A stretch of DNA of 20,555 nt, from assembly GCA_022722495.1 (NCBI GenBank), contig JAIJLI010000014.1, positions 1 through 20,555 on the forward strand, in the 5' to 3' direction. This stretch comes from Dialister sp. GTDB taxonomy: Bacteria > Bacillota > Negativicutes > Veillonellales > Dialisteraceae. Made by a program: the position numbers and the translations under genes. Shown in pieces: positions 2,294-18,134 of this stretch. Each line of letters begins with the position of its first letter. The stretch's first letter is position 1. The notes under the pieces are model-generated. The model made no database searches and was not told the origin of the DNA. It saw only the letters and a program-made list of their open reading frames with translations.

Positions 2294-2338
2294 CAAAGAT
2301 AGGCAGAATTTTCTCTACCTATCTCTTATCCATTAACT
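2294..2338 (-). promoter_or_regulatory. Phage-type promoter: AGTTAATGGATAA - 24 bp - TATCTTTG
   Basis: On the minus strand the upstream element AGTTAATGGATAA (2338 down to 2326) is followed by exactly 24 bp and then TATCTTTG (2301 down to 2294), a match to the Bacteroidota -7 box TAnnTTTG. The 304-residue gene starts about 29 nt downstream. The same arrangement and spacing occurs at 5761, 12313 and 18134. No conventional -33 TTTG is present at 19-21 bp. Confidence 0.8.
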
Positions 2339-2346
2339 TTTGGGCA

Positions 2347-2652
2347 TTAAATCAAGCCCTTCCATCTGAGGAACTTGCGCTTGCGGCTGCGCTTTCCTCT
2401 CTCGCTCCTGCAGTTGGTATGATAGACACAATCACGGAAGAGGTCTCTCGACTTCATATCCTTATCTACCAGTTTTGTCTTCTTGAAAGCCTCGAAGAGG
2501 GGGCGGTTCATAATCATCAGGTTGCCCTTCTCCGTAGGTAGAACAAAGTAGATTTCACCCTTGTTCTTCTTGGCTGCATAGTCTGCCTTAGCCGTAGCTT
2601 GGCGGTACATAATCTCGCATTTGATGCGCTTGAAAATCTTAGTAATCTTCAT
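2347..2652 (-). CDS. Small basic protein of unknown function (101 aa)
   Basis: A lysine/arginine-rich 101-residue protein. The central segment KGEIYFVLPTEKGNLMIMNR followed by FEAFKKTKLVDK suggests a small alpha/beta fold, and the C-terminus is very basic (RSERGKRSRKRKF), consistent with nucleic-acid contact. It starts 23 nt after the terminase stop and belongs to the same leftward unit; the next gene downstream has its own promoter. I do not recognise the family. Its position suggests a packaging or head-related accessory role, which is inference only. Confidence 0.65.
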   Translation of the reverse strand: MKITKIFKRIKCEIMYRQATAKADYAAKKNKGEIYFVLPTEKGNLMIMNRPLFEAFKKTKLVDKDMKSRDLFRDCVYHTNCRSERGKRSRKRKFLRWKGLI

Positions 2653-2675
2653 AATCGTAATTATTAAAATTGAAA

Positions 2676-4826
2676 CTATATGATGGTTGCTGCCGAAACA
2701 GAAACCTTTTTTCTCATTACCCTAGTCTGATACAGTACCATCTTAGGCATTTCCATTTCATTGAAGCAGATATGGAGTCCAATAGCTCTTGTCATGAGCA
2801 AATCATCGTGCTTTCCGTCTGCTGCTTCATATACGGTTCCGTTCTTCTCGTAGGTGAGATACTCATATAGGCATCTATCGTCTCGTTCTACATAAAGATG
2901 TTCACGGATCACTTGAACCAGTACAGAGATAACCATCGGCTTGGTTGCCACATTGGTGTGGAATCCATACTTCACTGGAACCTTATTCTTAATGTCTGAC
3001 TCACTCTGCTTGCGTGCATATAGATTGTCATAAACGTCCTTGATTTGATTCAGGATGAACTCAGACTGATCACCGCCTTCCAAGATATGCTCCTTGTCTT
3101 TCGTCTCCAAGGTATTGGATTCAATTACCAAGAGGGCATTATCATAGAACTTGGCTATCTGTGCTGCTTTCCAAGCCAGCAAGTCCATATCAATATGCCC
3201 ATACCATTGGGCTACCACATACGGCTTTCCACCTTCCATCATCCAGTATCGGTCGAAGACACAGATAACAGACCAGTCGGCATTCTTGCTTCGTCCACCA
3301 ATATCCACGACCACCAGATAGCGGTTGGTCACCCTGCAATCGTCAAAGTACTCCGGCTTGCTCCATATCCATAGCTGCCCCTGCTTGTCTTCACAGAAGC
3401 GGACATTCTGCATACACTTCTTGCCCTTGTAGCCGTCACCATATACATCACCGATAAACTTAGGTGCTCGGCATCCTTTTCTGAACTTGTCAACCTTATC
3501 CTCTGCGAATACCTTGGCACCTGAGTGTTTGAAGGCTTCAATATCATCGGTAGGGTAGCCAGCAGCCATATCAGCGTGGTCGGTGAACTTCTTTCGCTCA
3601 GCCATATACCAGTTGATGGCTTCCAGCGGAGCACCCAGTGTCCACAACTTCCAAAGGTATGTGCACGGCTCCTCTCGGTCGGACATCGTATTGCTGTTGT
3701 TCCTGTTCTCGTATAACCATTTGGCAAACTCCACCTTCTGCTTCTTGGTTTCAAAATCAAGATGATACATATCGTATATCTCGAACCAAGGAACAAAGAA
3801 CGGCTCAAACTGGGATTCACCATTTTTGGCTGCAATCCATTCCTTGTGGAAGAAATTTCCAGTACCATTGGCGGTGGATTCATAGGCAATCATCGTATAT
3901 GGTCGATATAAGATACCATTGGTTGCATTCTGTACCACTTCCTCAGGAGATTTGCCATCTGTCTTTTTCCACAGACCCACCTCGGAAAGATGAACCAAGT
4001 TGTAGTCTTCACCATTGGCTGATAATGGTCGCTCCATAGAACCCACCTTGATCTTGCAGAAACGCTGAGGAACCTTCTTCACGTTGCCGGATGTACCCAC
4101 ACCCACAAACTTAGGTTCGTTCTCAGAGTAGGCTTCACCCATTTCATAGAGGAATTTGGTAGGGTAGTTTTTCAAGGCTTCCTCAAACATTCCTCGGATG
4201 GTTTCTGCGGTGTCCTTCACCTGAGCAACAATCAGCGAGTTGAGACCCTTTTCCCACATTAATTGCATCCAGAGCATATACATCTGAATAACCGTTGAGC
4301 CTCCCCATTGTCGAGCCTTCAAGAGGATGAGTCGGATAGGGCGGTTCTTTTTTCTTCTCTCCTCCAGCCACCTGAGCAGTCTGCGCTGCGGTCTTCTGAG
4401 CACAAAGCGGAAGGGGAGACCTCCACCTTTCGGTTTGATATAGATGAACATGGCGAAGAAGAAAAATGGGTCGTGCTTCATCCTGATTCGTGTGAACTGC
4501 TCCACCAGTTGCTCCATTTCCTCTTCAAGGTTGTATGGCTCATCCATATCCGCATGCAGTTCTTCAATCACCGCCTTGCAGCTACCCAGTTCCAGCAGCA
4601 TCTTGATGAGCGGAATCTTCTTCATACTCATCGGGAGGTGCTGCTTCTGAATCGGGAAGTCAGGCAGAAAGAGCAGGAATCGCTTATCTCCACAACCTTC
4701 ACCCTTGATCGGGCTGAAAGGAGTGTTGATTTCCTTGATGCGCTTCTCATTCTCAGTCAGGATGCTCAATACATGTTTGTCTAGTGCATCAGTCAGCTTG
4801 GTTCTTATGGCTACTTGTCTTGGCAT
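2676..4826 (-). CDS. terL: Terminase large subunit (packaging ATPase/nuclease)
   Basis: This 716-residue protein has the full TerL layout. The ATPase part has an atypical Walker A, KARQWGGST (residues 170-178). Its Walker B region is NLVHLSEVG with acidic E282, and its coupling motif is AYESTANG (residues 314-321). The C-terminal RNase H-like nuclease shows VVVDIGG with D508, LVIES with E569, and ADGKHDD with D674/D675. TerL docks on the portal, cuts concatemeric DNA and pumps it into the prohead using ATP. The gene overlaps the stop of the rhomboid-like gene by 16 nt, so translation is probably coupled. About 160 residues precede Walker A, which is long for the family; this N-terminal part may bind the small terminase, which is not recognised by sequence here. 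Confidence 0.96.
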   Translation of the reverse strand: MPRQVAIRTKLTDALDKHVLSILTENEKRIKEINTPFSPIKGEGCGDKRFLLFLPDFPIQKQHLPMSMKKIPLIKMLLELGSCKAVIEELHADMDEPYNLEEEMEQLVEQFTRIRMKHDPFFFFAMFIYIKPKGGGLPFRFVLRRPQRRLLRWLEERRKKNRPIRLILLKARQWGGSTVIQMYMLWMQLMWEKGLNSLIVAQVKDTAETIRGMFEEALKNYPTKFLYEMGEAYSENEPKFVGVGTSGNVKKVPQRFCKIKVGSMERPLSANGEDYNLVHLSEVGLWKKTDGKSPEEVVQNATNGILYRPYTMIAYESTANGTGNFFHKEWIAAKNGESQFEPFFVPWFEIYDMYHLDFETKKQKVEFAKWLYENRNNSNTMSDREEPCTYLWKLWTLGAPLEAINWYMAERKKFTDHADMAAGYPTDDIEAFKHSGAKVFAEDKVDKFRKGCRAPKFIGDVYGDGYKGKKCMQNVRFCEDKQGQLWIWSKPEYFDDCRVTNRYLVVVDIGGRSKNADWSVICVFDRYWMMEGGKPYVVAQWYGHIDMDLLAWKAAQIAKFYDNALLVIESNTLETKDKEHILEGGDQSEFILNQIKDVYDNLYARKQSESDIKNKVPVKYGFHTNVATKPMVISVLVQVIREHLYVERDDRCLYEYLTYEKNGTVYEAADGKHDDLLMTRAIGLHICFNEMEMPKMVLYQTRVMRKKVSVSAATII

Positions 4827-5290
4827 ATCGGAGAATTAAGATACCCCCACAACAGACCGACTACATAGCAATAGATGTGGATGCCCACTGCCATGCAAGG
4901 AATGAAAAATCCTACACATATATACGAGAGAATGATGATGTTGTATTTCACCTTCTTCTCTACGAATGGGGCGATATATCCCATATAGGCATATACGATA
5001 CCGCTGAGACCGATAATGGGTACGCTAGAACTGGGGTAATAGCTTACGGCTATGAGATAGAACACCACCATATCTACGATGCCGCAAGGTCTGGATTTCA
5101 GGCATTGGTGCAGCACCCAAAGGTTGATGGCAGCATGGAAGACGTTCTGATGGAAGAACGGATAGGTAAGTCGGTTCAGCATAGAGCAACCTTCATAGAG
5201 ACCCATCCCATCATATCCAAGGAATGTGATACACATTATTATAATGTACCCAGCATAAAGCGCAATCTTTTCTTTCTTAGTTCGTAACAT
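4811..5290 (-). CDS. Rhomboid-like intramembrane serine protease (159 aa)
   Basis: A very hydrophobic protein with about six predicted membrane helices, the size of a minimal rhomboid core. All core rhomboid signatures can be read: H47-x4-H52-x3-N56 in FHQNVFHAAIN (as in GlpG helix 2), the catalytic GxSG at 94-97 (GLSG, Ser96), and a late-helix histidine, H138, followed by a G-rich stretch (VGLLWG). Rhomboids cleave membrane helices within the bilayer. The start at 5290 has an AGGAGG site at 5306-5301 and lies inside the preceding gene (52-nt overlap); the stop overlaps terL by 16 nt. Placement in the packaging unit is odd for a membrane protease. Possible roles are superinfection exclusion, receptor processing or processing of a membrane-anchored phage protein. 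Catalytic competence is inferred from motifs. Confidence 0.75.
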   Translation of the reverse strand: MLRTKKEKIALYAGYIIIMCITFLGYDGMGLYEGCSMLNRLTYPFFHQNVFHAAINLWVLHQCLKSRPCGIVDMVVFYLIAVSYYPSSSVPIIGLSGIVYAYMGYIAPFVEKKVKYNIIILSYICVGFFIPCMAVGIHIYCYVVGLLWGYLNSPICQDK

Positions 5291-5694
5291 CTTTCCTTCT
5301 CCTCCTTTCTCACCTTATGAAGAATCACGTGTATGGATTTCGGAGAAAGATAGAAACTGGGAGCCTCCTGATTGCACACGTAACTAATGGCATCCAACTT
5401 GGTGACAGAAGGATGCTGCTTGGTATAATCAATAAATCTGCGGTATATTTCATGAAACATTTCTCTCTTGGTAGGGTTCATGTTATTCAAGGATTTCCCT
5501 TTGATCATCGTCAGAATAACATTGTAAGCCCTGATATCCGAGACCCAAAAACGCTTGCTTGAAGATTGCAGTAATCTCTGCTCAATCTCCAAGAGGCTGA
5601 TATTGTCTCTTACTGATATGATTTCCTTGTAAGCCCTCAATATGTCAGCGTTTCGCTCTTGTGTAAAGTCACATCGTGATCCTTTATGTTTCAT
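5239..5694 (-). CDS. Unknown protein at head of terminase unit; small-terminase candidate (151 aa)
   Basis: A helical, basic protein without membrane segments. Recognisable stretches are FTQERNADILRAYKEII near the N-terminus, SSKRFWVSDIRAYNVI in the middle and FYLSPKSIHVILHKVRKEEK towards the end. The ATG at 5694 is preferred over an upstream in-frame ATG at 5733 because the promoter's -7 box lies at 5714-5707, so the upstream codon would not be transcribed. It is the first gene of the leftward unit that leads to terL, the usual place for a small terminase, and its helical DNA-binding look fits. No diagnostic motif proves this. It overlaps the rhomboid-like gene by 52 nt. Confidence 0.65.
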   Translation of the reverse strand: MKHKGSRCDFTQERNADILRAYKEIISVRDNISLLEIEQRLLQSSSKRFWVSDIRAYNVILTMIKGKSLNNMNPTKREMFHEIYRRFIDYTKQHPSVTKLDAISYVCNQEAPSFYLSPKSIHVILHKVRKEEKERCYELRKKRLRFMLGTL

Positions 5695-5706
5695 TCTCTT
5701 ATGATG

Positions 5707-5751
5707 CAAAGTTACAAAAAAGTATTGAAACAACCAAATTATTCATATACG
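5707..5751 (-). promoter_or_regulatory. Promoter for the terminase unit; host-type -33/-7 with weak phage element
   Basis: On the minus strand, TTTG at 5738-5735 is followed by 20 bp and TAACTTTG at 5714-5707. This is a good match to the Bacteroidota primary-sigma promoter (TTTG, 19-21 bp, TAnnTTTG). GAATAA also lies exactly 24 bp upstream of the -7 box (5744-5739), one base from the GGATAA core found at the other promoters; over 13 bases 8 match the consensus. It may serve as a dual or early promoter. The start codon at 5694 is only about a dozen bases past the box. Confidence 0.75.
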
Positions 5752-5760
5752 ATTAATTAA

Positions 5761-5805
5761 AGTTAACGGATAAGATTAATTATAGGCGGAAAAGCATTAC
5801 TTTTG
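5761..5805 (+). promoter_or_regulatory. Phage-type promoter: AGTTAACGGATAA - 24 bp - TACTTTTG
   Basis: AGTTAACGGATAA at 5761-5773 is followed by exactly 24 bp and the -7 box TACTTTTG at 5798-5805, about 31 nt before the scaffold start at 5837. There is no clear -33 TTTG. It is divergent from, and adjacent to, the leftward terminase promoter. Confidence 0.8.
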
Positions 5806-5836
5806 GGCATTGATTTATAAATTAATACATATATAT

Positions 5837-6652
5837 ATGCCTGATAATACAAATACGGAACAGAATGCTGGTGCTGCTGCACAGCAAGCTACGAAGACCA
5901 AGAGAGATTTGGCTTTGGAGCGTTTGAAGACTCGTCACCCCGATACCGAGTATGCGGATGATGAAGCTATCTATGGTGCTATCAATGATGATTATGATGC
6001 CGACCAGAAGTCTTTGCAAGGTTACAAGGATAACGAGAAGGCGATGGCAGACTGGATGGGAAGTGATCCTGCAGCGGCTACCTTCCTGCAAGCGATGAAG
6101 GCTGGCAGGAGTCCTTATGCAGAATTGATTCGTACCCACGGAGAGGATGCTATCGACTACTACTCTGATCCTGATAATGCTGACGAGATTGCCAATGCTC
6201 AGTCTGAGTTCTTGAAGAATGCGTCTGATGGCAAGAAATTGCAGGAGGAGTACGACAAGAATATGCCAGCCAGCTATGCGGTCTTCGACAAGCTGGAGGA
6301 GAAGTATGGCGAGGAAGCGGTGAACGAAGCTATCGACCAGTGCTTTCAGACGATGAACAATGTGGTGAAAGGTATCTTCACAGAGGATATGATTACCGCT
6401 TTCATCAAGGCAAAGAATCACGATACCGATGTAGCTGATGCTGCTCACGAAGGTGAGGTGCGTGGCAAGAACACCAAGCACATGAAGAACTTGGAGCTGC
6501 GCAAGAAGGGCGATGGTACTGCCGACCTTGACTCAGCGAATGCCGAGACCAAGAAGACCGACAACCAGCCGGAACTGGGTGCGCTTGGCAGGGCTACCCG
6601 AAGAGGAAACATCTGGGAACGTGGAAACGAGAAGCGAACACGCATCCGATAA
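5837..6652 (+). CDS. Capsid scaffolding protein
   Basis: A 271-residue, strongly acidic, highly helical protein with an A/Q-rich start (NTEQNAGAAAQQATK), no membrane segment, and a switch to a basic C-terminal tail (ATRRGNIWERGNEKRTRIR). Acidic helical body plus basic C-terminal capsid-binding tail is typical of phage scaffolds, which template prohead assembly and then leave or are cleaved. It sits directly upstream of the major capsid gene. The ATG at 5837 is chosen over an in-frame ATG at 5810 because the promoter box ends at 5805, leaving the AT-rich leader expected in Bacteroidota. The C-terminal motif IWxRGxEKRT recurs in the 73-residue protein at 11485. Confidence 0.8.
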   Translation: MPDNTNTEQNAGAAAQQATKTKRDLALERLKTRHPDTEYADDEAIYGAINDDYDADQKSLQGYKDNEKAMADWMGSDPAAATFLQAMKAGRSPYAELIRTHGEDAIDYYSDPDNADEIANAQSEFLKNASDGKKLQEEYDKNMPASYAVFDKLEEKYGEEAVNEAIDQCFQTMNNVVKGIFTEDMITAFIKAKNHDTDVADAAHEGEVRGKNTKHMKNLELRKKGDGTADLDSANAETKKTDNQPELGALGRATRRGNIWERGNEKRTRIR

Positions 6653-6695
6653 GATAGAGTTAGATTTATATAATGTTTAATTAATATTTAGGATA

Positions 6696-8240
6696 ATGAA
6701 AGTAACAAAAAGTACATTTAATCGACTGTTCTCCATTTTCATTATGGTGATGGCAGTTATTTTTGGTGTAAACGGTCAGGTGCTGATGGCTGAGGCTACT
6801 CTTCCTGATGGTGGTACTTCTGAGAGTGGTCACCCTGCGGAGGCTGGCGGTGCTCCTGCTGCTGGTGAAGCTGGCAATGGTGGTGCGGCTCGTCAGGATG
6901 ATGGTATCAAGACTGAGACCAAGGGTCGTGAGCACTTTAACGAGAAGGGCATTGAGTATTACAACAATGACATCAACGAGAAGATTACCAAGATTCGCCC
7001 GATGGCAACACCAGTGGATCAGATTTCCCGTTATGCCACAACCAAGTCTGCAAGCTCTTTTGTAGTTGAGTATTGGAGTATCGGTACTCGTTCTATCAAA
7101 ACTACCGTGACAGAGAATACAGAGGAGAGTACTGGAACATCTATGGTGTTAAAGGTAGAAGACCCTGAAATGTTCACGCTTGATGATACAATCCGAGTAG
7201 TTGGTGTAAAGGCGATTACCAATTATCAGGGTAAGGCTTATGCAGACATTACCGATGCTCCTACTCCTGATTTGCAACTTTGTGTGTGCGGTAAGGATAC
7301 ACAGGGCTTTCCTATTGTTTTCGCCACCAATGGTAAACTAGTCAGTAAGCAGGCTATCGGTATTCCTGCCTTGAAGCAGGGTCAGAAGTTAATTCGTATG
7401 GCGAAGAGCTGCGGTGAGTTGGACGTACAGACAGGTCGTTTCAACAACCTTCCTGCTGCTGATATTCAGTACTGCCAGAACTTCATGATTCAGGTGGAGC
7501 AGAGTACTTTCGACAAGATTGCTGATAAGCGAGTGGATTGGGATTTCTCCGACATCGAGGAGGATAGCATTTACGATATGAAACTTGCCATGGAGGGTAC
7601 TTATCTCTTCGGTGATATGGCTTGCATCAAGCATACTACAAAGAACAATTCGGCTCAGTGGTTTACTAAGGGTATCTGGTGGATGGCTGGCAAGGATATT
7701 GAGGTAGGTCATGTTGCTACTGCCGATGAGATCAAGAAGGGCTACACCAAGAATGAGCGAGTTATCACAGACTTGGAGCTGGTAGATATTTCCAAGGATA
7801 TGTTTGTCGGTACTGGTATCGGCAACAAGCGCAAGGTGGTTATCGCTGGTTCTGACTTCGTGAGTGCATTCAGTAAGATTGATTCTGACAAGTTCCGCTT
7901 GAAGGACACCGTTGAGGTATGGAATTTGAAGTTCAAGAGTTGGGAGACAGACTTCGGTGAGGTATTGATGATTCATTCAGAGTTGTTCGACCTCTTCGGT
8001 ATGAGTGACTGCGGCTTCGCTCTTGATCCTGAGTTCTTGGTGAAGAGAGTACACTTGTCTTGGACTCGTAACGTTCTCGACTTGAAGAAGGCTGGAATCC
8101 GTAACACCGATGCAGTAGTTATTCAGGAGGTTGCTTGTCTGTACTTGAAGTACCCTAAGGCACATGCTCGTATGCGACTTGCCAAGGTTCCTGATACAGA
8201 GGGCGCATCTGAGGCAGAAGAGACCAAGGCTGCTGCTTAA
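6696..8240 (+). CDS. Major capsid protein (HK97-fold expected)
   Basis: A 514-residue protein immediately after the scaffold and before a strong terminator, consistent with a highly expressed capsid gene. The body from about residue 65 shows a capsid-like pattern: an N-arm (GIKTETKGRE, then KIRPMATPVDQISRY), a long mixed alpha/beta body, and no enzymatic motif. The identity is inferred from size, position and the N-arm style. Residues 1-34 are unusual: basic start, a hydrophobic run (LFSIFIMVMAVIFGV) and an AEA site, resembling a signal peptide, followed by a G/A/E-rich linker. An internal ATG at 6786 (MAEATLP) would remove the hydrophobic part, but the AT-rich leader favours 6696. The mature form may be trimmed. 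Confidence 0.85.
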   Translation: MKVTKSTFNRLFSIFIMVMAVIFGVNGQVLMAEATLPDGGTSESGHPAEAGGAPAAGEAGNGGAARQDDGIKTETKGREHFNEKGIEYYNNDINEKITKIRPMATPVDQISRYATTKSASSFVVEYWSIGTRSIKTTVTENTEESTGTSMVLKVEDPEMFTLDDTIRVVGVKAITNYQGKAYADITDAPTPDLQLCVCGKDTQGFPIVFATNGKLVSKQAIGIPALKQGQKLIRMAKSCGELDVQTGRFNNLPAADIQYCQNFMIQVEQSTFDKIADKRVDWDFSDIEEDSIYDMKLAMEGTYLFGDMACIKHTTKNNSAQWFTKGIWWMAGKDIEVGHVATADEIKKGYTKNERVITDLELVDISKDMFVGTGIGNKRKVVIAGSDFVSAFSKIDSDKFRLKDTVEVWNLKFKSWETDFGEVLMIHSELFDLFGMSDCGFALDPEFLVKRVHLSWTRNVLDLKKAGIRNTDAVVIQEVACLYLKYPKAHARMRLAKVPDTEGASEAEETKAAA

Positions 8241-8278
8241 TGCAGGGCACATTCGGCAAATTATTCATTAAATAGAGA

Positions 8279-8308
8279 GGGGTGTGGGCACTAGCCCCAT
8301 CCCTTTTT
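8279..8308 (+). terminator. Rho-independent terminator after the capsid gene
   Basis: A G-rich arm at 8279-8289 (GGGGTGTGGGC) pairs with GCCCCATCCC at 8294-8303 around an ACTA loop, with one bulged T and one G-U pair, followed by five T residues. It sits 38 nt after the capsid stop. It probably limits read-through from scaffold/capsid into connector and portal genes, setting a high capsid-to-portal ratio. Confidence 0.88.
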
Positions 8309-8336
8309 CATAACACATATATAATAAGGTATAATC

Positions 8337-9415: not shown

Positions 9416-9417
9416 TC

Positions 9418-11454
9418 ATGGCAAAGAAGAAAGAAAAAGCAAAGTTGTTGTCGCTGAGCAAGGTGGTGGACAGAGAGGAACTGGATAGCGTAAAAGCTTC
9501 CAAGAACCGATTCGACAAGCCATACGAGCGTGCCTTCTCCATCCTGCTGGAAGCACAACGATACTATAACAACATGGATAACTTACGAAAGCGTAGGGAG
9601 AGAAACAAGCGGTACTGCTATGGAGACCAGTGGGGAGACCTCATTGAAATCGAGAATCGGTGCGGCTTTACCAAGCGTATCAAAGAGGAAGACTATATCC
9701 GTGAGCAGGGTAGTGAGCCGCTCAAGAACAACCTGATCCGAAGGCTGGTGAAGAATGTGCTGGGTGTGTACCGCTCCCAGAGCAAGGAACCTACCTGCAA
9801 TGCGAGGGATAAGGATGAAAAGCGGTATGGCGAAACGATGAGTGTTGTGCTGCAATGCAACCGACAACTGAACCGAGAGACGGAAATGGATGCCCGAACG
9901 ATGGAGGAGTTCCTGATCAGTGGTGCGGCTATCTACAAGAAGAAGTATGGATGGCGAAGAGGTAGGTTGGATTGCTGGACGGACTACGTGAACCCGAACA
10001 ATTTCTTCATAGACAACAATATGAGGGATTTCCGTGGTTGGGACGTGAGTTGCTTGGGTGAGGTGCATGACATCACCATCGGCAACGTGCTTCGGGAATT
10101 TGCCAAGACTCCTGCCGAAGCAAGGAAGTTGAAGGAGATTTACCGACTGGCTGCTGACCGAGACTTCGTGATAGCCGACTGTACCCAGCGTTTCGGAGAG
10201 TTTGATCCGAAGACCATCGACTTCATGAATCCTGCCAATCCTTCACTCTGCCGAGTGATTGAGGTATGGCGCAAGGAGAGTAAGCCACGCTATCGCTGCC
10301 ACGACTATAACAATGGAGATGATTTCAAGATTGATATTGAGGATAAGGCTGATATTGTAGATGCTGAGAACAGAGACAGAATCAGGCGAGGTATGGCTGC
10401 TGGTATGCTGGAAGAGGATATTCCGCTGATTGAAGCCGAGTGGTTTATGGATGATTACTGGCATTTCTACTATCTTTCTCCTTTCGGTGACATATTGAGA
10501 GAGGGTGAGACTCCTTATGCCCACGGAGAGCATCCATATTGCTTCAAGTTCTATCCGTTCATTGATGGCGAGATTCATAGCTTCGTGGAAGATGTGATTG
10601 ACCAGCAGAGATATGTGAACAGACTGATCACGATGTACGACTTCATTATGAGGGCGAGTGCCAAGGGTGTGCTGCTCTGTCCTGAGGATTGTCTGCCGGA
10701 TGATATGAGCTGGGATGATTTCTGTGACGAGTGGAGTAGATTCAACGGAGTGGTAAGATACAAGTCGAACAAGAGTGGTCAGGTTCCTCAGCAAGTAGCC
10801 AACAACTCAACGAACATCGGTATCGGTGACTTGCTCAACTATCAGTTGAAGTTCTTCGAGGATATTTCGGGTGTAAATGGTGCGCTGCAGGGTAAACCAG
10901 GAGTATCGGGTACGAGTGGTTCGCTCTATGCCCAGCAGACACAGAATGCTACCATGTCGCTGCTTGACATCTTGGAGAGTTTCAGCCAGTTTATCATTGA
11001 TGGTGCTTACAAGACGGTGAAGAATATGCAGCAGTTCTATGATGTGGCACGCAACTTCAACATCGTGGGCAGGGCAGGACAGATTGTGCGCTATGATCCG
11101 AAGAAGATTCGTGATGTGGAGTTTGACATTAATATAACCGAGAGTACGGCTACTCCTGTATATCGTCAGATGGCAAACGACTTCCTGATGCAGTTGTGGC
11201 AAGCTCAGGCTATCACCTTAGAGCAGTTGTTGCAGGTAGGTGATTTCCCATTCGGTGACGAACTTCTGCAGTCGATATCATCCCAGCAGGAGGCTATCAA
11301 GAATGGTGAGACTCCACAAGGATTCTCTCCTCAGCTTCAAGCCCAAGTTGCTCAGGCATCACAGAGCAATCCGAAGGCTCAGGCGATGTTGCAGCAGATG
11401 ATGAGCGGTCAGGGAGTGAGTCCTGATGGACAGAATCCACCGCTGGCGGCATAA
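9418..11454 (+). CDS. Portal protein
   Basis: A 678-residue protein within the size range of P22/crAss-type portals. The N-terminal region has the typical opening helix and aromatic motif (ERAFSILLEAQRYYNNMDN; RYCYGDQWGDLIE), then PLKNNLIRRLVKNVLGVYRS. The clip/stem part is around residues 400-500 (VIDQQRYVNRLITMYDFIMR; QLKFFEDISGVNGALQGKPG), and a Q/A-rich C-terminal crown segment follows. The dodecameric portal forms the DNA channel at one capsid vertex, docks the terminase and later the tail. It starts 2 nt after the connector gene stop. Portal downstream of the capsid gene reverses the common portal-scaffold-capsid order. Confidence 0.9.
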   Translation: MAKKKEKAKLLSLSKVVDREELDSVKASKNRFDKPYERAFSILLEAQRYYNNMDNLRKRRERNKRYCYGDQWGDLIEIENRCGFTKRIKEEDYIREQGSEPLKNNLIRRLVKNVLGVYRSQSKEPTCNARDKDEKRYGETMSVVLQCNRQLNRETEMDARTMEEFLISGAAIYKKKYGWRRGRLDCWTDYVNPNNFFIDNNMRDFRGWDVSCLGEVHDITIGNVLREFAKTPAEARKLKEIYRLAADRDFVIADCTQRFGEFDPKTIDFMNPANPSLCRVIEVWRKESKPRYRCHDYNNGDDFKIDIEDKADIVDAENRDRIRRGMAAGMLEEDIPLIEAEWFMDDYWHFYYLSPFGDILREGETPYAHGEHPYCFKFYPFIDGEIHSFVEDVIDQQRYVNRLITMYDFIMRASAKGVLLCPEDCLPDDMSWDDFCDEWSRFNGVVRYKSNKSGQVPQQVANNSTNIGIGDLLNYQLKFFEDISGVNGALQGKPGVSGTSGSLYAQQTQNATMSLLDILESFSQFIIDGAYKTVKNMQQFYDVARNFNIVGRAGQIVRYDPKKIRDVEFDINITESTATPVYRQMANDFLMQLWQAQAITLEQLLQVGDFPFGDELLQSISSQQEAIKNGETPQGFSPQLQAQVAQASQSNPKAQAMLQQMMSGQGVSPDGQNPPLAA

Positions 11455-11484
11455 TGTTTAGTGATTATTGATTAATTTATAGTT

Positions 11485-11800: not shown

Positions 11801-11808
11801 TATCTTTG
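11801..11808 (+). promoter_or_regulatory. Possible promoter -7 box (TATCTTTG)
   Basis: TATCTTTG lies 32 nt before the start at 11840, the same leader length as at the other promoters. The GGATAA element is absent at the expected 24-bp spacing, and no clean TTTG lies 19-21 bp upstream, so this is a weaker or differently regulated promoter candidate. The 133-bp gap 11707-11839 otherwise holds nothing recognised. Confidence 0.45.
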
Positions 11809-11839
11809 CAGCATCATAAACTCTTAATTTTTATATATT

Positions 11840-12325
11840 ATGGATTTTGTAGATTTCGTTGATAAGTATCAGCAGGATATGACTCCTGAACAGATGTTGA
11901 GTATAGCCAAGGCTATGGGTAAGTATCTCTCATATAAGTTGAGCGATGTAGAGGTACATCACCTTTGTGCGATGGTGTATGGTGTATTAAGCGAAGAGCA
12001 TTTTGACAAGCACTTTGCTGATTATGCTATCAAGAAGATGTGGTACGAGGATGAGGATGGAACCAAGCACATGGCTCCTTTCTTTACGGACGAGGAGATA
12101 AAGAAAGCCTTTGACCAGCATAAGGATGATATTTCCGACTACAACATCTTTGACTTGGTGGTTACGATGAATCTGCTCAGAAGCGACCATCATAAGCTGC
12201 TGAAACAATATAGCAAGGATGAGGAGGAATTGAAGGAAATGGTGGTTATGATGGCTATCGAATACCTCCAAGACCCTGACTGCTTGCATCCTACAAGCAA
12301 GATATGGCACAACATTAACGGATAA
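11840..12325 (+). CDS. Conserved phage-type protein of unknown function (161 aa)
   Basis: An all-helical acidic protein. It contains the pattern HFDKHFADYAIKKMW, then EDGTKHMAPFFTDEEI, then YNIFDLVVTMNLLRSDHHKL, ending PTSKIWHNING. This resembles a family of helical unknown-function proteins in Gram-positive and Bacteroidota phages (DGTKH followed by a YN-x-W/F-D-x-x-V-T-x-N block). No catalytic function is known to me. It sits between the 73-residue protein and the lysis cassette, and its own stop codon GGA-TAA forms part of the promoter element for the lysis genes. A head-completion or DNA-handling role is possible but not supported by sequence. Confidence 0.7.
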   Translation: MDFVDFVDKYQQDMTPEQMLSIAKAMGKYLSYKLSDVEVHHLCAMVYGVLSEEHFDKHFADYAIKKMWYEDEDGTKHMAPFFTDEEIKKAFDQHKDDISDYNIFDLVVTMNLLRSDHHKLLKQYSKDEEELKEMVVMMAIEYLQDPDCLHPTSKIWHNING

Positions 12326-12357
12326 GATAATAGTTACGGGAACATATCTTATCTTTG
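12313..12357 (+). promoter_or_regulatory. Phage-type promoter: CATTAACGGATAA - 24 bp - TATCTTTG (lysis unit)
   Basis: CATTAACGGATAA at 12313-12325 is followed by exactly 24 bp and TATCTTTG at 12350-12357, 30 nt before the holin start. It matches 11 of 13 bases of the shared element. The final TAA is also the stop codon of the upstream gene. It drives holin, endolysin, spanin and the two following genes. Confidence 0.8.
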
Positions 12358-12387
12358 CATATTATTAATAATATATAAAGATAAGAT

Positions 12388-12651
12388 ATGACTCCAAACG
12401 TGCGTGAAGGATTGCAATATGGTGCAGCTATTGGAATGTTAGTGAGTGGTGTTGTTCTCACCTTCCTATCATTCTTTCTAAATAATTATGTAGTTTCGGA
12501 TGGTGTACTCTGGTACGTCAGCCAGACTTTGGTTTACTCTGGAGCAATCTTCGGAGTGAACATTTATTTCAAGACCAAACTGGGCAACTTTGAGAGTAAG
12601 GTAAAGGACGAACTCGCAAATATGCTGAAACAAGTAAAGGAGGGCAAGTAA
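12388..12651 (+). CDS. Holin (two transmembrane segments)
   Basis: An 87-residue membrane protein. Helix 1 is at about residues 13-33 (IGMLVSGVVLTFLSFFL), helix 2 at about 42-61 (WYVSQTLVYSGAIFGVNIYF), and a charged C-terminal tail follows (ESKVKDELANMLKQVKEGK). Size, topology and position directly before a muramidase-type lysis enzyme identify a class II-type holin, which opens the inner membrane at lysis time. It ends 2 nt before the endolysin start. The segment LNNYVVSDGVLWYVSQTLVY is in the style of Bacteroidota phage holins. Confidence 0.85.
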   Translation: MTPNVREGLQYGAAIGMLVSGVVLTFLSFFLNNYVVSDGVLWYVSQTLVYSGAIFGVNIYFKTKLGNFESKVKDELANMLKQVKEGK

Positions 12652-12653
12652 CT

Positions 12654-13202
12654 ATGAAGGTAACAAGAGAACAGATTTTAGAGATTATGCCGAATGCCAA
12701 GGATAAGGTGGATGCTTTCCTGCCTTACATCAACGGCTATGCCGAGGTTTTCCATATTGATACACCGAAGCGAATGGCGCATTTCTTGGCTCAGATAGCC
12801 CACGAAACCAGCGAGCTGAGATATACCAAGGAGGTGGGCAACAAGGCTTACTTCCACAAGTATGATGAGGGCAAGTTGAAGAATATGCTAGGCAACCTGA
12901 AAGATGGCGATGGCTACAAGTATAGGGGCAGGGGATTGATTCAGATTACGGGTAGAGCCAACTATCAGGCTTACCAGAAGAGCAAGTACTGCCGAGGTGA
13001 CATCATGGAGCATCCCGAACTGCTGGAGCAGCCATTGGGCGCAACCAAGAGTGCGATGTGGTGGTGGTGGAAGCACGGCTTGAATGAGCTGGCTGATAGT
13101 GATAGCTTCCTAGCAATCACCAAGACCATCAATGGCGGCACATACGGCTTGGAGCACAGACGAACATTCTTGAAGAGAGCTAAGGCTGCATTAAAGGTAT
13201 AG
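12654..13202 (+). CDS. GH19-family endolysin (chitinase-like lysozyme)
   Basis: A 182-residue single-domain enzyme. It has the glycoside hydrolase 19 signatures AQIAHETSEL (catalytic Glu51, with E60 a likely second acid) and YKYRGRGLIQITGRANY (residues 88-104), and a C-terminal KTINGGTYGLEHR motif. Phage GH19 enzymes cut peptidoglycan glycan strands. There is no signal peptide, so export to the periplasm needs the holin encoded just upstream. The spanin gene follows after 4 nt, completing a Gram-negative lysis cassette. Length is normal for phage GH19 endolysins. Confidence 0.93.
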   Translation: MKVTREQILEIMPNAKDKVDAFLPYINGYAEVFHIDTPKRMAHFLAQIAHETSELRYTKEVGNKAYFHKYDEGKLKNMLGNLKDGDGYKYRGRGLIQITGRANYQAYQKSKYCRGDIMEHPELLEQPLGATKSAMWWWWKHGLNELADSDSFLAITKTINGGTYGLEHRRTFLKRAKAALKV

Positions 13203-13206
13203 GCTT

Positions 13207-13671
13207 ATGAAGAAGTGGTATGATTCAGATGTATGGCAGTTGCTGATCTACATTTTAGCTATGCTGCTGGTAGCATTTCTTATGTCGGGATGCAAGACTT
13301 CCTACGTCCCGATGGAGAAATTCGTATATCGTGACGTAGTAAAATGCGATACCCTGCATACTTCTGACAGCATTTTCGTGCATGATTCGGTATCAAGTTC
13401 ATATAAGGGAGATACCCTTTTCGTTGACCGATGGCACAAGAAGGTGGTTGTGAAGACCCAGTATAAGGCAAGGGTGGATTCCTTCATCCGAAGAGACTCC
13501 ATCCCAGTACCCTATCCAGTAGAGAAGCAGCTCTCCAAGTGGGAGCAGTTTCAGTTGAAGTATGCGATGTGGTCGATGGGAGCGATGTGCGCCCTGCTCA
13601 TCATTTTAGGTTTAATCATCTATAGGAAACATAAGAATGGCAAATTTATCAATTTCAATTACAAAAAGTAG
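13207..13671 (+). CDS. Unimolecular spanin (lipoprotein with C-terminal membrane anchor)
   Basis: A 154-residue protein with a hydrophobic signal segment (LLIYILAMLLVAF) and lipobox LMSGC (Cys29), so the N-terminus should be lipidated and outer-membrane bound. A periplasmic beta-rich/charged region follows (IFVHDSVSSSYKGDTLFVDR), then a C-terminal transmembrane helix at about 119-139 (MWSMGAMCALLIILGLIIY) and a basic cytoplasmic tail. One polypeptide linked to both membranes is the u-spanin design (as in phage T1 gp11), which fuses inner and outer membranes as the last lysis step. Position after holin and endolysin supports this. Its last 35 nt overlap the next gene. Confidence 0.82.
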   Translation: MKKWYDSDVWQLLIYILAMLLVAFLMSGCKTSYVPMEKFVYRDVVKCDTLHTSDSIFVHDSVSSSYKGDTLFVDRWHKKVVVKTQYKARVDSFIRRDSIPVPYPVEKQLSKWEQFQLKYAMWSMGAMCALLIILGLIIYRKHKNGKFINFNYKK

Positions 13672-14086
13672 CATCTATGAGGAGGTGGCGAAGACTACCG
13701 CCTACATCGGTGGCAAGAGCTTGGATGCAAACGGCAAGAGTCTGTATGATCAAGTGTTTGTGACGGATGCAGATAGGGAAATGCTGGAAGGCTTTTGGAA
13801 TGATGCCATCAATGACGTTTCCGTAGCCTTGGAGAGTGTGCTTGCTACAGAGAAGAGTGATTCGGGAGAAGATGAAATCTTCGGACTGAGAGTAAGCTCT
13901 CTTTTTAAGGAGTCATTGGTGAAGACTTTGGAAACTACAGCTTTCAGCTATGTAGTAAATAAGATTGTAGCAGATTGGTGCTTAGTAGTTTCTAGGGATA
14001 AGTCAGAAGACTATCTCAGCAAGGCAAACGCTTTGCTGGTGAAGATGGATGCCATACTCTATATGCGTAAAAGACCAACAAGATAG
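13637..14086 (+). CDS. Structural-type phage protein, paralogue of next gene (149 aa)
   Basis: A soluble helical protein starting MANLSISITKSSIYEEVAKT, with TDADREMLEGFWNDAIND in the first half and AFSYVVNKIVADWCLVVSRD near the end. The start lies inside the spanin gene (35-nt overlap in another frame). The pattern of helix 'IYEEVAKTTAYIG', acidic 'DREMLE.FW..A', and C-terminal 'Y.V....ADW' is repeated more loosely in the following gene, suggesting tandem duplication. I recall similar pairs among structural genes of Bacteroidota phages but cannot name a function; tail or head completion is a guess. Confidence 0.7.
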   Translation: MANLSISITKSSIYEEVAKTTAYIGGKSLDANGKSLYDQVFVTDADREMLEGFWNDAINDVSVALESVLATEKSDSGEDEIFGLRVSSLFKESLVKTLETTAFSYVVNKIVADWCLVVSRDKSEDYLSKANALLVKMDAILYMRKRPTR

Positions 14087-14097
14087 GAGGGTAGGAT

Positions 14098-14646
14098 ATG
14101 AAACATTGCAATAAGGGATATAAAGTGATGATAGAGTTGGAAAAGAAGGAGTTGATATACGACATCAAGAATACGGCTTTTTCTTTTGCAGACTCTTATG
14201 CTAGTCAGAAAGATATGGATGCCAAGCAGTTGAAGAATGTGTTTGACGTATCTGAGGAAGGCAACCGTGATAAACTGGCTAGAATATTGGATTCAGCCGT
14301 AGAGGATTGCAGGGAAATGCTTTTCCGCTTTACCAAGGTAGAAATGCTAGGTGGCGGCTTTGACTCGAACGAGTGGGCAGAGTGTATCGGTTCGCCTACC
14401 AATGAGGAGGAAGCCTACTATTTGGCTCTGAGAATGCCAAACGGCTTCTCGAAGACCAGCGTGCATACCATGATGGTATATATTCACGATTATATTGTGA
14501 ATCAATGTCTATATGAATGGCTGATGATTGTTTTTCCTGATGGTGCCGATAGGTTCTGGGCACTGGCTGAGGATAAGAAGCAGAAGATTAAGGATGCCAG
14601 CAACCGCTCTGCGGTAAGAGCAAGGATCAGGCTTCATTCTTTCTAG
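14098..14646 (+). CDS. Structural-type phage protein, paralogue of previous gene (182 aa)
   Basis: A soluble helical protein whose order of features matches its neighbour: ELIYDIKNTAFSF at the front, NRDKLARILDSAVEDCREML in the middle, and HDYIVNQCLYEWLMIVFPDGADRFW-type helix at the end. A perfect AGGAGG site at 14085-14090, 7 nt before ATG 14098, supports this start over a second ATG at 14128. Such a site is unusual here, since most genes in the window lack one. It is the last gene of the rightward unit, before the terminator hairpin. Function unknown. Confidence 0.7.
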   Translation: MKHCNKGYKVMIELEKKELIYDIKNTAFSFADSYASQKDMDAKQLKNVFDVSEEGNRDKLARILDSAVEDCREMLFRFTKVEMLGGGFDSNEWAECIGSPTNEEEAYYLALRMPNGFSKTSVHTMMVYIHDYIVNQCLYEWLMIVFPDGADRFWALAEDKKQKIKDASNRSAVRARIRLHSF

Positions 14647-14667
14647 ACTTATGGTTAACGAAAAAGC

Positions 14668-14699
14668 AAGGGCAGCTATCTTCACAGACGGCTGCCCTT
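14668..14699. terminator. Bidirectional terminator between convergent units
   Basis: A perfect 9-bp stem AAGGGCAGC (14668-14676) / GCTGCCCTT (14691-14699) with a 14-nt loop lies between the stops of the rightward and leftward units. On the minus strand it is followed by GCTTTTTCG, a good U-tract; on the plus strand by ATTGATTTTAAA, a weaker one. It should stop transcription from both sides, best from the right. Confidence 0.85.
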
Positions 14700-14736
14700 A
14701 TTGATTTTAAAATTATGAATGTATATGAAGAAAAAC

Positions 14737-17652
14737 TTATCTAAGATTATTTTGCAGTCGGGCAACAAACTCAGTTCCTACGCTATGAATGGATTCATCG
14801 TAGCTGAGACTGCCCATTACTGCAAAGCGGAAATACTTGTAAGGTGATCCTGCCATACCAGCCAGAAGCTGGTTGACGGAAGAATGGATGTAGAACCAGT
14901 TGAAAAGGTCGTTGCTTCCATAGAGCACCACACCCACCTTACCTTTTGCAGCGTTGCGGAAATAACCACGGATGATGCTCTTGAACATCGTCTTATGGAT
15001 ATTCTCCTGACCGAGAGTCAACGGACGTGTACAGAAGAAATAGGAAACGCTTCCCGATGGCTCCTTGACATATACATCAACAATCTTTCCGCTCTGATTG
15101 ATGGCATAAGACTCAGGGTAGGAGTTGACGGTGGAACGGAATACGTTGTGCATCGTTCCCCACATCCTGCTCTTCAAGGAATACACATACGCATAGGTGT
15201 AGTCGGGTCTGAACACGATGATGCGGTTATCGTAATAATCATAGATCAGGCTCGCCTTCTGCAGGAATGTTCTGAATCGGATATATTGGGTATCAGATTC
15301 TGGAATGCCTCCAAGGGCAAGCAGCTTCTTCTGATAGTCGTTTTTGAATATCTGGGTGAAGACAAACGGATAACCATCAAGAACATCTGTGATACACTCG
15401 GAATCCCTGCCTCGCTGCATCATGATACCTCGTTCCGTAGGGAACAGAACGGCATCATCAATCTGCAAGATACCCTTAGGGTTGGAGCAAATATCTCTGT
15501 TGGCTGGCTGTCGGGCATCGTAGGTTCCTTCCTGATTGGTCATTAACACCCATACTCCTTCATCGGTGAAAGCATAGAGTGGAGCTTCGCCAAACTGACC
15601 CTCGCTGATTGGTCGGGTATTGGCTGCAAGCGCATTGATAATGGATGATCCAACCTGAACCGAGTTCTTGGCAGGGAACACCATCGGATTCTCGGCTTCG
15701 CTGACCTTGACTACATTAGGATGCTGAGAGACATACTTCTGATTGTCGGTCTTGCTTAATGCTGCATTATACTCGGCTTCCGTAATCTCGGTGAAGTCTC
15801 CCGTATCAATCGGTGTAGAATCCCAAGTATATCCAGAAGGGATAATGACTCCACTTCCGCTACCAAAGTTTCCTCCACTGGTTTCGTTTGCTTTAGTGCT
15901 GCCACCTCCAAAGTCTCCACCAGAAGAACTGCTCTTGATGAGCTTATGGCGATATACTTGCATAAAGGCTGGAAGTCCGGCATCATCGTGATAACGATAC
16001 ATATAATCAGACAACTCTGAACTTTCTGTTTCTGTTGGTGCATCTGTTCTTCCTCCAAATCCCTCGTTGTTCAAAGTATTTGAAGTCTGTCTATCTGCTG
16101 CAACTGGTGTCGAGCGGTTCTTACTGATGTTGATATAGTAAGACATTCCGAACGTCTCGGAAGGTTTCAGCTTAACTTTCTTTGAGTAGTATTTATTGTA
16201 TTTAGGGAGATAGAAGTAAATGGTCATAGCCGTAGCAAGAGTGCTAGGATATGCCAATATAGGGCTGAGAGGGTATTGCAGCTTACCCTTGTAGTAAATA
16301 TCTCTCTTGATACTATTCTCGCTGATGCTGACCTGATATACTGCATCACAGATGTAATCGGTAGAGAGTGCATTATTGGTGGCAAGATCAGTGTACTCAT
16401 TCAGGTACATCTGATTATTCGAGACTTTCCGGCTGGAGAAAATATTGGTATCGAAAGCATTGAAGATAGTCTTCTTCACGTTTCCGATATGCAAGCGGTT
16501 GTTGTATGCAATGGAACATTGACCGCCAAATGAGCTTCTCTGAAAGTCTGCAAGAGAAATACTTTCCTCGGTCTCCAATACTCGTTTGAGAGGAATACTT
16601 GTGCCGAATTTATCCTTGCTGATACTTGTGCTCAGATAGAAAGATTTCTTCTCGAAAGACTGATATACATCTTCCTCTGACAGATATTGAAAAGCATCGC
16701 AATTAACTCCTGATTCCATTTTGTCGTTCCAAAGGTAGCACTTATATCGTGATATACCTTTGGTTTGTTTCTCAGTATCAACAAATGATTCCGGCTGGGA
16801 AAGATAAACATCTACACCGCTGATGAGGTCTTCAAGACCTTCGGGTATATCCATATTGATAACGATGGAGTGAGTATGAAGGCTTGTGCTAGTACCAACA
16901 GCCTTTTTCTCCTGATACCAGATAAACTTGTTGAAAGTCGTTTCTGGTGCAAGAATGAATGGATTTGATATATTGATGTATGATACACCATCATATAGAC
17001 GGATGGCGATTACACCAAAAACGGTATATTTGAAATACTCCGTGCCATTCTCCTCCAACTGCTTATTGATCAGCGCATCCAAAGCATTGAAAATGATGGA
17101 TGCACCTTTAAGAGAAGTATCTGTTCTATTGGAATAATACTTGTTTGATACAAAAGCGGAATCCCAATCATCACCAAGATTAATGGAAGCATTGCATACC
17201 ACCGACTTTGTGTTTGAGATAACTGCACTATAGCTAATGGCTGATAAGTCAAAACTAGTGTAATCGCTTCCGTTCCAATAGGCATACTTGGTGTTTTCCT
17301 CTCCCACAAAGCACAAGATGTTTCCGATGGCACTCACGGCATTGACTTGGAAGCCATTAAGACTGATGGTGTTCTCACTTCCGTTTCCACCTTTCTCTGT
17401 CCAATACCAATTGTTTCCATTACGGATGATGTAGTGGGAGTGAATGGTATTATCGTGAGTAACCTTGTGAATCAGTTCGATGCTGGCTTCATCAGGTATG
17501 GTGATGACAGAATCAACCAACACTGGCTGGTGGATAGGGTGGAGTGCTTCATCCTCGTTGATGAGGTTCAGGCAGGTTCCCAACTCACCCTCCTGACTTT
17601 CGTGGTCGGAAGGTGAGTGGGAAAGACCTTGAAATAATACTTCTTTAATCAT
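14737..17652 (-). CDS. Large tail protein, probable tail stabilisation/muzzle-type protein (971 aa)
   Basis: A very large beta-rich protein starting MIKEVLFQGLSHSPSDHESQ, then EGELGTCLNLINEDEALHPI. An opening of this kind (GLSxSPSDHxSxxGEL, NLIxExxAL) is one I associate with large tail-hub or stabilisation proteins of crAss-like and related Bacteroidota podoviruses; that is recall, not a search. The body shows repeated beta-strand blades, e.g. NILCFVGEENTKYAYWNGSD and APLYAFTDEGVWVLMTN, which could form a propeller. A G/S-rich insert lies near 15838-15934. The start at 17652 is preferred to an in-frame start at 17703 that would run 41 nt into the upstream gene. It likely forms part of the tail tip that channels DNA. 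Confidence 0.72.
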   Translation of the reverse strand: MIKEVLFQGLSHSPSDHESQEGELGTCLNLINEDEALHPIHQPVLVDSVITIPDEASIELIHKVTHDNTIHSHYIIRNGNNWYWTEKGGNGSENTISLNGFQVNAVSAIGNILCFVGEENTKYAYWNGSDYTSFDLSAISYSAVISNTKSVVCNASINLGDDWDSAFVSNKYYSNRTDTSLKGASIIFNALDALINKQLEENGTEYFKYTVFGVIAIRLYDGVSYINISNPFILAPETTFNKFIWYQEKKAVGTSTSLHTHSIVINMDIPEGLEDLISGVDVYLSQPESFVDTEKQTKGISRYKCYLWNDKMESGVNCDAFQYLSEEDVYQSFEKKSFYLSTSISKDKFGTSIPLKRVLETEESISLADFQRSSFGGQCSIAYNNRLHIGNVKKTIFNAFDTNIFSSRKVSNNQMYLNEYTDLATNNALSTDYICDAVYQVSISENSIKRDIYYKGKLQYPLSPILAYPSTLATAMTIYFYLPKYNKYYSKKVKLKPSETFGMSYYINISKNRSTPVAADRQTSNTLNNEGFGGRTDAPTETESSELSDYMYRYHDDAGLPAFMQVYRHKLIKSSSSGGDFGGGSTKANETSGGNFGSGSGVIIPSGYTWDSTPIDTGDFTEITEAEYNAALSKTDNQKYVSQHPNVVKVSEAENPMVFPAKNSVQVGSSIINALAANTRPISEGQFGEAPLYAFTDEGVWVLMTNQEGTYDARQPANRDICSNPKGILQIDDAVLFPTERGIMMQRGRDSECITDVLDGYPFVFTQIFKNDYQKKLLALGGIPESDTQYIRFRTFLQKASLIYDYYDNRIIVFRPDYTYAYVYSLKSRMWGTMHNVFRSTVNSYPESYAINQSGKIVDVYVKEPSGSVSYFFCTRPLTLGQENIHKTMFKSIIRGYFRNAAKGKVGVVLYGSNDLFNWFYIHSSVNQLLAGMAGSPYKYFRFAVMGSLSYDESIHSVGTEFVARLQNNLR

Positions 17653-17662
17653 ATCTGTATTG

Positions 17663-18085
17663 TTATGGGTTTGGACGGATGATCTCGTAGTACGGCTCGC
17701 CATTTTTGTTCTTGCGAGGAATGCAGGTCAGGCGCACCATCTTGTTGAGTGGGAGATTGTAATCATCAAGGATGGCAGTAACCGATGGACGTTCGCTGCG
17801 GAAACCAATCTTCTTGTGCTCCTGATTATACTGGAGCGGACAGAAGTAAGTCTGAGCCTTGCGGAGTTCCTCCCAGTCCTCTCTCAGGCAGAATCCGTAT
17901 GTTCCTCTGCTGGAGATACGGAAGACGAAGATGGAACTATCTGTGCGCTCTATCTGCATAATATGGTTGTAGATGCCCTGCGAGAGAGTGACAGAGTTGG
18001 CTCTACCATCAAGCACTACGAAGTTTTTTCGATGCAGGAAACCTTGAATGTTCCGGCACTTGTCTTTAATATAACTGAATATCAT
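17663..18085 (-). CDS. Conserved phage-type protein preceding the large tail gene (140 aa)
   Basis: A basic, beta-rich 140-residue protein. Distinctive stretches are LHRKNFVVLDGRANSVTLSQ, SSIFVFRISSRGTYGF, CPLQYNQEHKKIGFRSERPS and LTCIPRKNKNGEPYYEIIRP. No membrane segment, no enzymatic motif that I can name. It stops 10 nt before the large tail gene and shares its promoter, so it probably helps assemble or forms a small part of the tail. The ATG is only 4 nt after the -7 box of its promoter, implying a leaderless mRNA or an alternative non-ATG start further in; the next ATG is at codon 43. Confidence 0.68.
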   Translation of the reverse strand: MIFSYIKDKCRNIQGFLHRKNFVVLDGRANSVTLSQGIYNHIMQIERTDSSIFVFRISSRGTYGFCLREDWEELRKAQTYFCPLQYNQEHKKIGFRSERPSVTAILDDYNLPLNKMVRLTCIPRKNKNGEPYYEIIRPNP

Positions 18086-18089
18086 TTTG

Positions 18090-18134
18090 CAAATATACGA
18101 AGTTTTGGTTAGAAAAGATTATTATCCGTTTACT
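18090..18134 (-). promoter_or_regulatory. Phage-type promoter: AGTAAACGGATAA - 24 bp - TATATTTG (tail unit)
   Basis: On the minus strand AGTAAACGGATAA (18134 down to 18122) is followed by exactly 24 bp and TATATTTG (18097 down to 18090). It matches 12 of 13 bases of the shared element. The final TAA is the stop codon of the upstream 80-residue gene. It should drive the 140-residue and 971-residue tail genes. Confidence 0.8.

Follow-up and report, generated by a model that had tools for sequence, protein, structure and literature searches.

The window analysed here is a 20,555-nucleotide stretch of DNA filed under Dialister sp. (GenBank assembly GCA_022722495.1, contig JAIJLI010000014.1, positions 1 to 20,555 of the forward strand), which carries fibre, packaging, capsid, lysis and tail-region genes of a phage. 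Four places in it share a short element placed exactly 24 bp (N24) before a TAnnTTTG box, an arrangement that we interpret as a phage-specific class of late promoter. Site A, on the minus strand, has the element AGTTAATGGATAA at 2326–2338 and the -7 box TATCTTTG at 2294–2301, 28 bp upstream of gene 1351–2265, which precedes a fibre gene (fibre families matched at 3–1349). Site B, on the plus strand, has the element AGTTAACGGATAA at 5761–5773 and the box TACTTTTG at 5798–5805, and would be the scaffold/major-capsid promoter. It is followed by the scaffold-like protein (5810–6652, +, named by position only; phrog_22323, of unknown function, with a start that is probably the ATG at 5837), which is the first gene of the capsid operon, then by the major capsid protein (6696–8240, +; phrog_26635, of unknown function, with a weak match to phrog_1328, major head protein) and the portal protein (9418–11454, +; phrog_156). 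Site C, the putative lysis promoter on the plus strand, has the element CATTAACGGATAA at 12313–12325, overlapping the 3' end of the open reading frame (ORF) 11840–12325, and the box TATCTTTG at 12350–12357, 30 bp upstream of a small ORF (12388–12651) that is holin-like by inspection only and is followed by the endolysin (12654–13202; phrog_181). Site D, the putative tail-region promoter on the minus strand, has the element AGTAAACGGATAA at 18122–18134, overlapping the 3' end of ORF 18122–18364, and the box TATATTTG at 18090–18097, 4 bp upstream of the ATG of ORF 17663–18085. The four sites thus lead the fibre genes (box at 2294), the capsid operon (5805), the lysis genes (12357) and the tail region (18090).

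An earlier note on this DNA, made from the sequence alone, had described these four sites as a shared 13-mer followed by exactly 24 bp and TAnnTTTG, and coordinates, spacing and box all held on re-examination. GGATAA is invariant in the four and their spacers look unrelated; the 13-mer itself is exact at one site only, the others differing at one or two positions. Scanning the window for GGATAA-N22..26-TAnnTTTG returned four matches, all at N24, whereas 100 shuffles of the window gave a mean of 0.01 and never reached four. The weaker fifth copy that the note had listed is also there, upstream of the divergent gene ORF151, with the element CGTATATGAATAA at 5739–5751 (-), in the arrangement GTATATGAATAA-N24-TAACTTTG at 5750–5707 (-), and its equivalent in G001, a 61,985-base virus contig that is the nearest record and shares 38% of the window's sampled words, scores 19.6 bits. 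The box of this ORF151/terminase promoter, TAACTTTG at 5707–5714 (-), also has a host-type TTTG 20 bp before it. Besides equivalents of the window's four sites (that of site A at 27748), G001 contains two more. One, again with GGATAA, precedes a gene whose weak likeness to T7 gp14 stays below the Pfam cut-off; the next reads AGATAA and lies on the opposite strand.

That the GGATAA-type sites are real and extend well beyond the window was confirmed in 80 related viral loci gathered with the major capsid protein as bait. Among these loci plus the window (81 sequences, near-duplicates included), GATAA-N24-TAnnTTTG occurred 70 times, while each other spacing in the range 0–59 gave 0–5 occurrences, and in 26 whole records GATAA-N23..25-TAnnTTTG occurred 68 times against 3 for the reversed control, 25 of the 26 being positive. 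With the broader pattern GTWAANN[ACG]WTAW before TAnnTT[TC]G, 58 of the 63 element–box pairs found over spacings 10–44 in 23 genomes sat at N24 and 5 at all other spacings together; these genomes are partly close relatives (G024/G025, W01/W02/G020 and G001/G003 are alike in spelling or sequence), so that counts from them are not all independent. The search against shuffled sequence that the earlier note had proposed, carried out here on relatives with a position matrix at 12 bits or more, found 65 sites in the 13 whole genomes scanned, while five shuffles averaged 1.2. The spacing test (58 versus 5) is the cleaner of the two because the matrix was trained on loci overlapping some of the 13 scanned genomes, that is, partly on the same phages. 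The consensus of 60 distinct sites, two named phages added, reads GTWAA[AC][AG]GATAAA-N23-TAnnTTTGY, and the TAnnTTTG box occurs at each of the window's four sites and at almost all of the family sites listed. The note's GGATAA is accordingly better described as a two-part element, GTWAA-NN-NWTAW, whose spelling depends on the phage lineage.

We also surveyed the region corresponding to the scaffold promoter. After removal of 16 of the 80 loci with identical cores, 64 distinct upstream regions remained, and 56 of them held an equivalent above 12 bits. Among the eight below, read by eye, degenerate N24 forms were present in three (L058, L072, L074) and N23 forms in two (L024, L025), no form of the element was seen in L045 and L019, and the sequence of L063 starts only at the capsid gene, so that it offers no valid test. 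Outside the family, a scan of viral contigs (114 loci examined among the matches listed) found the pattern mostly inside genes or far from starts, by reading, as chance would give; a scan of genome contigs, in which the listed matches came from many unrelated phyla, served only to reach two host genomes. At the portal promoters of G005 (15565) and G018 (8804), a degenerate box is preceded by a tandem pair of elements spaced 18 bp apart.

The TAnnTTTG box is the one used by the primary sigma factor of Bacteroidota hosts, whose promoters have elements centred at -7 and -33 (PMC7366714). If TAnnTTTG is likewise centred at -7, the phage element would span about -46 to -34, with its centre at about -40. 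Compared with the sigma-ABfr promoter (-33 TTTG, -7 TAnnTTTG), the phage sites thus share the -7 box and carry, in place of the -33 TTTG, an element 4–5 bp further upstream at fixed spacing. The host -33 sequence itself is largely missing, as the earlier note had held: TTG at N19–20 was found before 3 of 89 element-bearing boxes but before 22 of 91 other boxes that closely precede genes, TTTG at the same distance in 1 of 89 against 9 of 91, and TTTG is absent from the spacers of all four strong window sites. The TTG at N20 of the ORF151 promoter is an exception that, among the 23 genomes, recurs only in the G001 equivalent.

The parallel that the note had drawn with the T4 middle promoters (MotA/AsiA) is best kept as an analogy: there too a phage element stands in for the host's upstream box while the -10/-7 box is kept, but the MotA box is centred at -30 (PMC6024815), against about -40 here, and the genes at issue here are late by content and not middle. 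Profiles for MotA and AsiA (PF09114, PF09010) matched none of 21 records each, but the control genomes gave no match either, and sigma70 region 4 (PF04545) gave short matches in 4 of 21 records, all below cut-off. A closer likeness is to class II activator-dependent promoters, at which the activator site is centred near -41, abuts the -35 region and keeps rigid spacing (lambda cI at PRM and CRP-type activators). The phage element would share the centre near -40 and shares the fixed spacing; it differs in being two-part, in a spelling that varies by phage lineage and in a candidate activator without a significant fold match. Two other readings of the element were set aside. The DnaA box is TTATCCACA, and its TTATC is the reverse complement of the GATAA of the phage element, but the DnaA C-terminal domain (PF08299) was found in only 2 of 27 records, one below cut-off. 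A direct-repeat reading (identity 0.60 at lag 7 and 0.55 at lag 8, against 0.24–0.46 at other lags from 1 to 9) is suggestive only in so A/T-rich a word and was not used as evidence.

To define the genes led by the element, we took the 112 sites of at least 15 bits in the 23 genomes and assigned the downstream gene to families, considering families that occur in 4 or more of the first 13 genomes and leaving those above 400 residues unclustered. The sites preceded the scaffold-like/capsid operon (21 sites; the scaffold-like gene is present in 23 of 23 genomes), p221, which is weakly T7-gp14-like (19), the portal (15), the DUF5681-like gene (14), T140 of the tail region (14), p149 (6), ORF151 (1, a weak copy of the window type) and other families (3); the remaining 19 had no family, several of them being fibre or lysis genes by position. 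None of the 112 was assigned to replication, VRR-nuclease or methylase families, the 19 without a family included in that count. By gene content, then, the genes led by the sites are late genes, which narrows the note's "middle or late" to late. Of the 112 sites, 89 have a TAnnTTTG box, whose end lies at most 60 bp from the next ORF start in 60 cases and 61–150 bp away in 2. Two counts from the same set weigh against reading the sites as promoters, namely that 27 of the 89 boxes lie more than 150 bp from the next ORF start and that 10 fall within an ORF of 60 residues or more. ORF starts were set mechanically, so that some distances are wrong and the far ones probably reflect, in part, mis-set starts.

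Taken as patterns in DNA, the fixed register, the retained -7 box and the gene content strongly support a phage-specific class of late promoters leading the structural and lysis blocks, as the earlier note had suggested. At the putative tail-region promoter, the 4-bp gap between box and ATG (18085–18097, -, in the window) recurs in G001, G008, G020, BKO1-TP3 and BS-TP4, and the mRNAs from these promoters may be leaderless. In G001, the stretch between the DUF5681-like and gp14-like genes holds, at 480–580 (L342), two putative late promoters that overlap and diverge, each carrying an element, and several relatives have a similar arrangement.

Promoters within one phage tend to a single spelling of the element, with exceptions in each phage, and the spelling differs between lineages: GTTAACGGATAA-like in G001, GTAAAAAG[AT]TAA in BKO1-TP3 and BS-TP4, GTAAGAA[GC][AT]TAA in G011, GTTAATA[GC][AT]TAA in G024 and GTTAAAA[GCT]ATAA in G019. 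In 20 genomes (W03, G007 and G025 were left out of the 23 for this test and for that on promoters away from the scaffold gene), the scaffold element fitted the other sites of its own phage at 0.850 against 0.706 for those of other phages, and the own profile ranked first for 11 of the 20 and second to tenth for the other nine. A spelling that differs by lineage and is shared within a phage argues for a reader encoded by the phage, and this is the ground on which the note's phage-encoded DNA-binding factor gains support, since a host factor would not explain it.

The alternative is that an alternative sigma factor or regulator of the host reads the element, which would fit with the -7 box being the host's own. 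The named relatives all infect Bacteroides, yet spelling varies between their lineages, and 99 Bacteroides genomes searched for the element word with N20–28 gave 20 matches against 14 for the reversed control. Three of these had the N24 spacing, and one of the three is identical over 44 bases to the BKO1-TP3 scaffold site. There is thus no clear N24 excess in these genomes and no sign of the host using the promoter class, and we regard a host reader as very improbable.

A second alternative is that the element is a repressor site, for example for a phage XRE repressor, that silences the late promoters in the lysogen, host polymerase alone sufficing afterwards. The named relatives are temperate by annotation, with integrase and repressor genes in BKO1-TP3, BS-TP4 and BF1-TP2; a site near -40 can also block polymerase, and the element in the window lies between the scaffold and ORF151 boxes. 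On the other side, late boxes mostly without the host -33 TTG look weak unaided, a repressor needs no spacing fixed to the base pair, and the XRE family did not follow spelling (rho -0.01 in 16 genomes; about 0 for the repressors at promoters away from the scaffold gene). This explanation seems to us unlikely. The XRE repressor was accordingly dropped as a reader, as were the DUF5681-like protein and a methylase, with which spelling is also uncorrelated.

We therefore favour activation, and consider it likely, from the sequence patterns above, that a phage activator works at the late promoters. On this view the phages make up a temperate family infecting Bacteroidota, probably podovirus-like. 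The TAnnTTTG box at -7 would be recognised by host RNA polymerase carrying its primary sigma factor, and a phage-encoded protein would bind the 12–13 bp element at about -46 to -34, in place of the absent -33 box, and from there touch polymerase; the 24-bp spacing would hardly vary because of that contact. One such protein per phage, once made, could switch on the capsid, portal, internal-virion, tail and lysis operons together. We hold this account, host polymerase plus a phage-encoded activator on the element, to be quite probable.

Which protein is the activator is a more tentative matter. The earlier note had seen no obvious factor in the window, but ORF151 (5239–5694, -), divergent from the scaffold-like gene, is a candidate. 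Its family is present in 23 of 23 genomes and corresponds to PHROG 27246, to which no function is assigned (E 5.3e-38 over residues 1–145 of 151; all 84 aligned relatives match too). The structural model shows two tandem helical repeats (pLDDT 92.5), and the N- and C-terminal halves are homologous over 65 of 65 columns, scoring 31.9, whereas 60 column shuffles gave 8.5 at most. In the 43 of 56 loci that carry all four proteins compared, spelling distance correlated with protein distance at 0.50 for ORF151, 0.38 for the capsid, 0.38 for the scaffold-like protein and 0.29 for the terminase. The ORF151 correlation persisted given the capsid (0.36), the scaffold-like protein (0.37) or the terminase (0.43), none of 500 permutations reaching it in each case, while the converse partial correlations, given ORF151, fell to 0.01–0.08. 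Co-variation of ORF151 with the element is thus suggestive, and the element shared in the intergenic region could let ORF151 act on its own promoter.

Several observations count against ORF151. It has no recognised DNA-binding domain, and Foldseek returned no match at E <= 0.001. A rhomboid gene that overlaps it correlates with spelling almost as well (0.49 versus 0.515), so that linkage may explain part of the signal. When only non-scaffold promoters are considered in the 20 genomes, rho is 0.38 for ORF151, 0.32 for the scaffold-like protein, 0.30 for the terminase, 0.27 for LE98 and 0.14 for the capsid, but the rhomboid protein (0.41) and p223 (0.38) do at least as well as ORF151, and a higher value, 0.62, belongs to an AbrB-like protein encoded in 13 of the 20 genomes. 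In nearest-neighbour sign tests, ORF151 came out ahead of or level with each of seven proteins, though never significantly: 13:6 for the capsid (p 0.17), 14:6 for the scaffold-like protein (p 0.12), 9:4 for p135, 12:8 for p101, 11:8 for rhomboid, 10:9 for the terminase and 7:7 for the portal. The outgroup BF1-TP2 (capsid 41.5% identical) lacks the N24 class although it has ORF151 (33% identity). Finally, ORF151 belongs to the apparent terminase operon, and it might be the small subunit of the terminase.

In BF1-TP2 (PQ571263; L338, L363), a CATAACGATAAA word recurs near several late genes, by reading, and the arrangement differs, with GATAA 26 bp before the ORF151 box; the word is perhaps the same switch re-spaced. 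The rhomboid-like membrane protein (so annotated in relatives) is encoded in the window at 4811–5290 (-), between ORF151 and the terminase. Its family occurs in 21 of 23 relatives, and an intramembrane-protease-like conserved gene is an odd member of a packaging operon. An attempt to recover half-site spacing classes (6 or 7 bp period) from ORF151 was abandoned, class 6 being poorly recovered by any of eight proteins, and per-column protein-to-base association picked out many scattered residues, which we left uninterpreted.

If ORF151 were simply the small terminase subunit, it would have no role in transcription. It is the first gene of an apparent operon with the large terminase (2676–4826, -; phrog_2), on the same strand, and small terminase subunits, as generally described, bind DNA and are universal. 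The DUF5681-like family, small and conserved (21 of 23), offers an alternative small terminase, which we presume by resemblance only; the name comes from a single BF1-TP2 annotation, and two members had no Pfam match. ORF151 co-varies with spelling and the DUF5681-like protein does not (rho -0.01). For the 84 ORF151 relatives, no terminase family appeared among the 25 of 34 PHROG families listed, nor among the 25 of 28 families listed in a Pfam scan, which a divergent small subunit may escape. A purely packaging role for ORF151 appears to us possible yet doubtful.

The reader could also be some other phage factor: the AbrB-like protein of the tail region, LE98, or an early protein that has diverged too far to be recognised as a family. 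LE98 (18368–18664, -) is a small protein near the tail-region promoter, with ORF 18122–18364 in between; structurally it weakly resembles, among other folds, T7 Gp2 and RNA polymerase epsilon (YkzG), and Foldseek gave no match at E <= 0.001. That one of these reads the element is a serious possibility, if short of a probable one. Because of the linkage, the AbrB-like rho and the non-significant sign tests, we put forward ORF151 as activator only tentatively, and keep the AbrB-like protein, LE98 and an unseen early protein as rivals. ORF151 nonetheless is the protein we would name first. The boldest form of this proposal would be a switch not described before, in which the two-repeat, new-fold ORF151 binds the two-part -40 element and turns on the late regulon, spelling and activator drifting together in each lineage, and in which LE98, as a protein of the T7 Gp2/epsilon type, may retune host polymerase; this combined picture is speculative and we think it rather unlikely as a whole.

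Bacteroides are abundant gut bacteria, and late-gene control of their temperate phages is what is at issue here. In a PubMed Central subset, with preprints and subscription papers lying outside it, we found no late promoter or late activator described for Bacteroides phages of this type; according to a study of crAss001 (PMC8375218), host polymerase is likely to be what the middle and late genes of that phage rely on, and the available part of the study gives no motif. The motif would give a rule for spotting late operons from sequence in many gut phages that lack annotation, and would point to one testable activator gene per genome. Across the lineages, reader and promoter spelling may have changed in step, and the natural series of diverged protein–DNA pairs would help in studying how an entire regulon is rewired by a phage.

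Two further genes near these promoters stood out. A ThyX-like protein (Pfam Thy1, 34.9 bits, over cut-off) is encoded at 18901–19470 (-) in the window, in the region ahead of the tail genes. In BKO1-TP3 and BS-TP4 (L086, L087), a gene annotated as reverse transcriptase lies directly upstream of the lysis-region promoter and is possibly part of a diversity-generating element near a very long gene.

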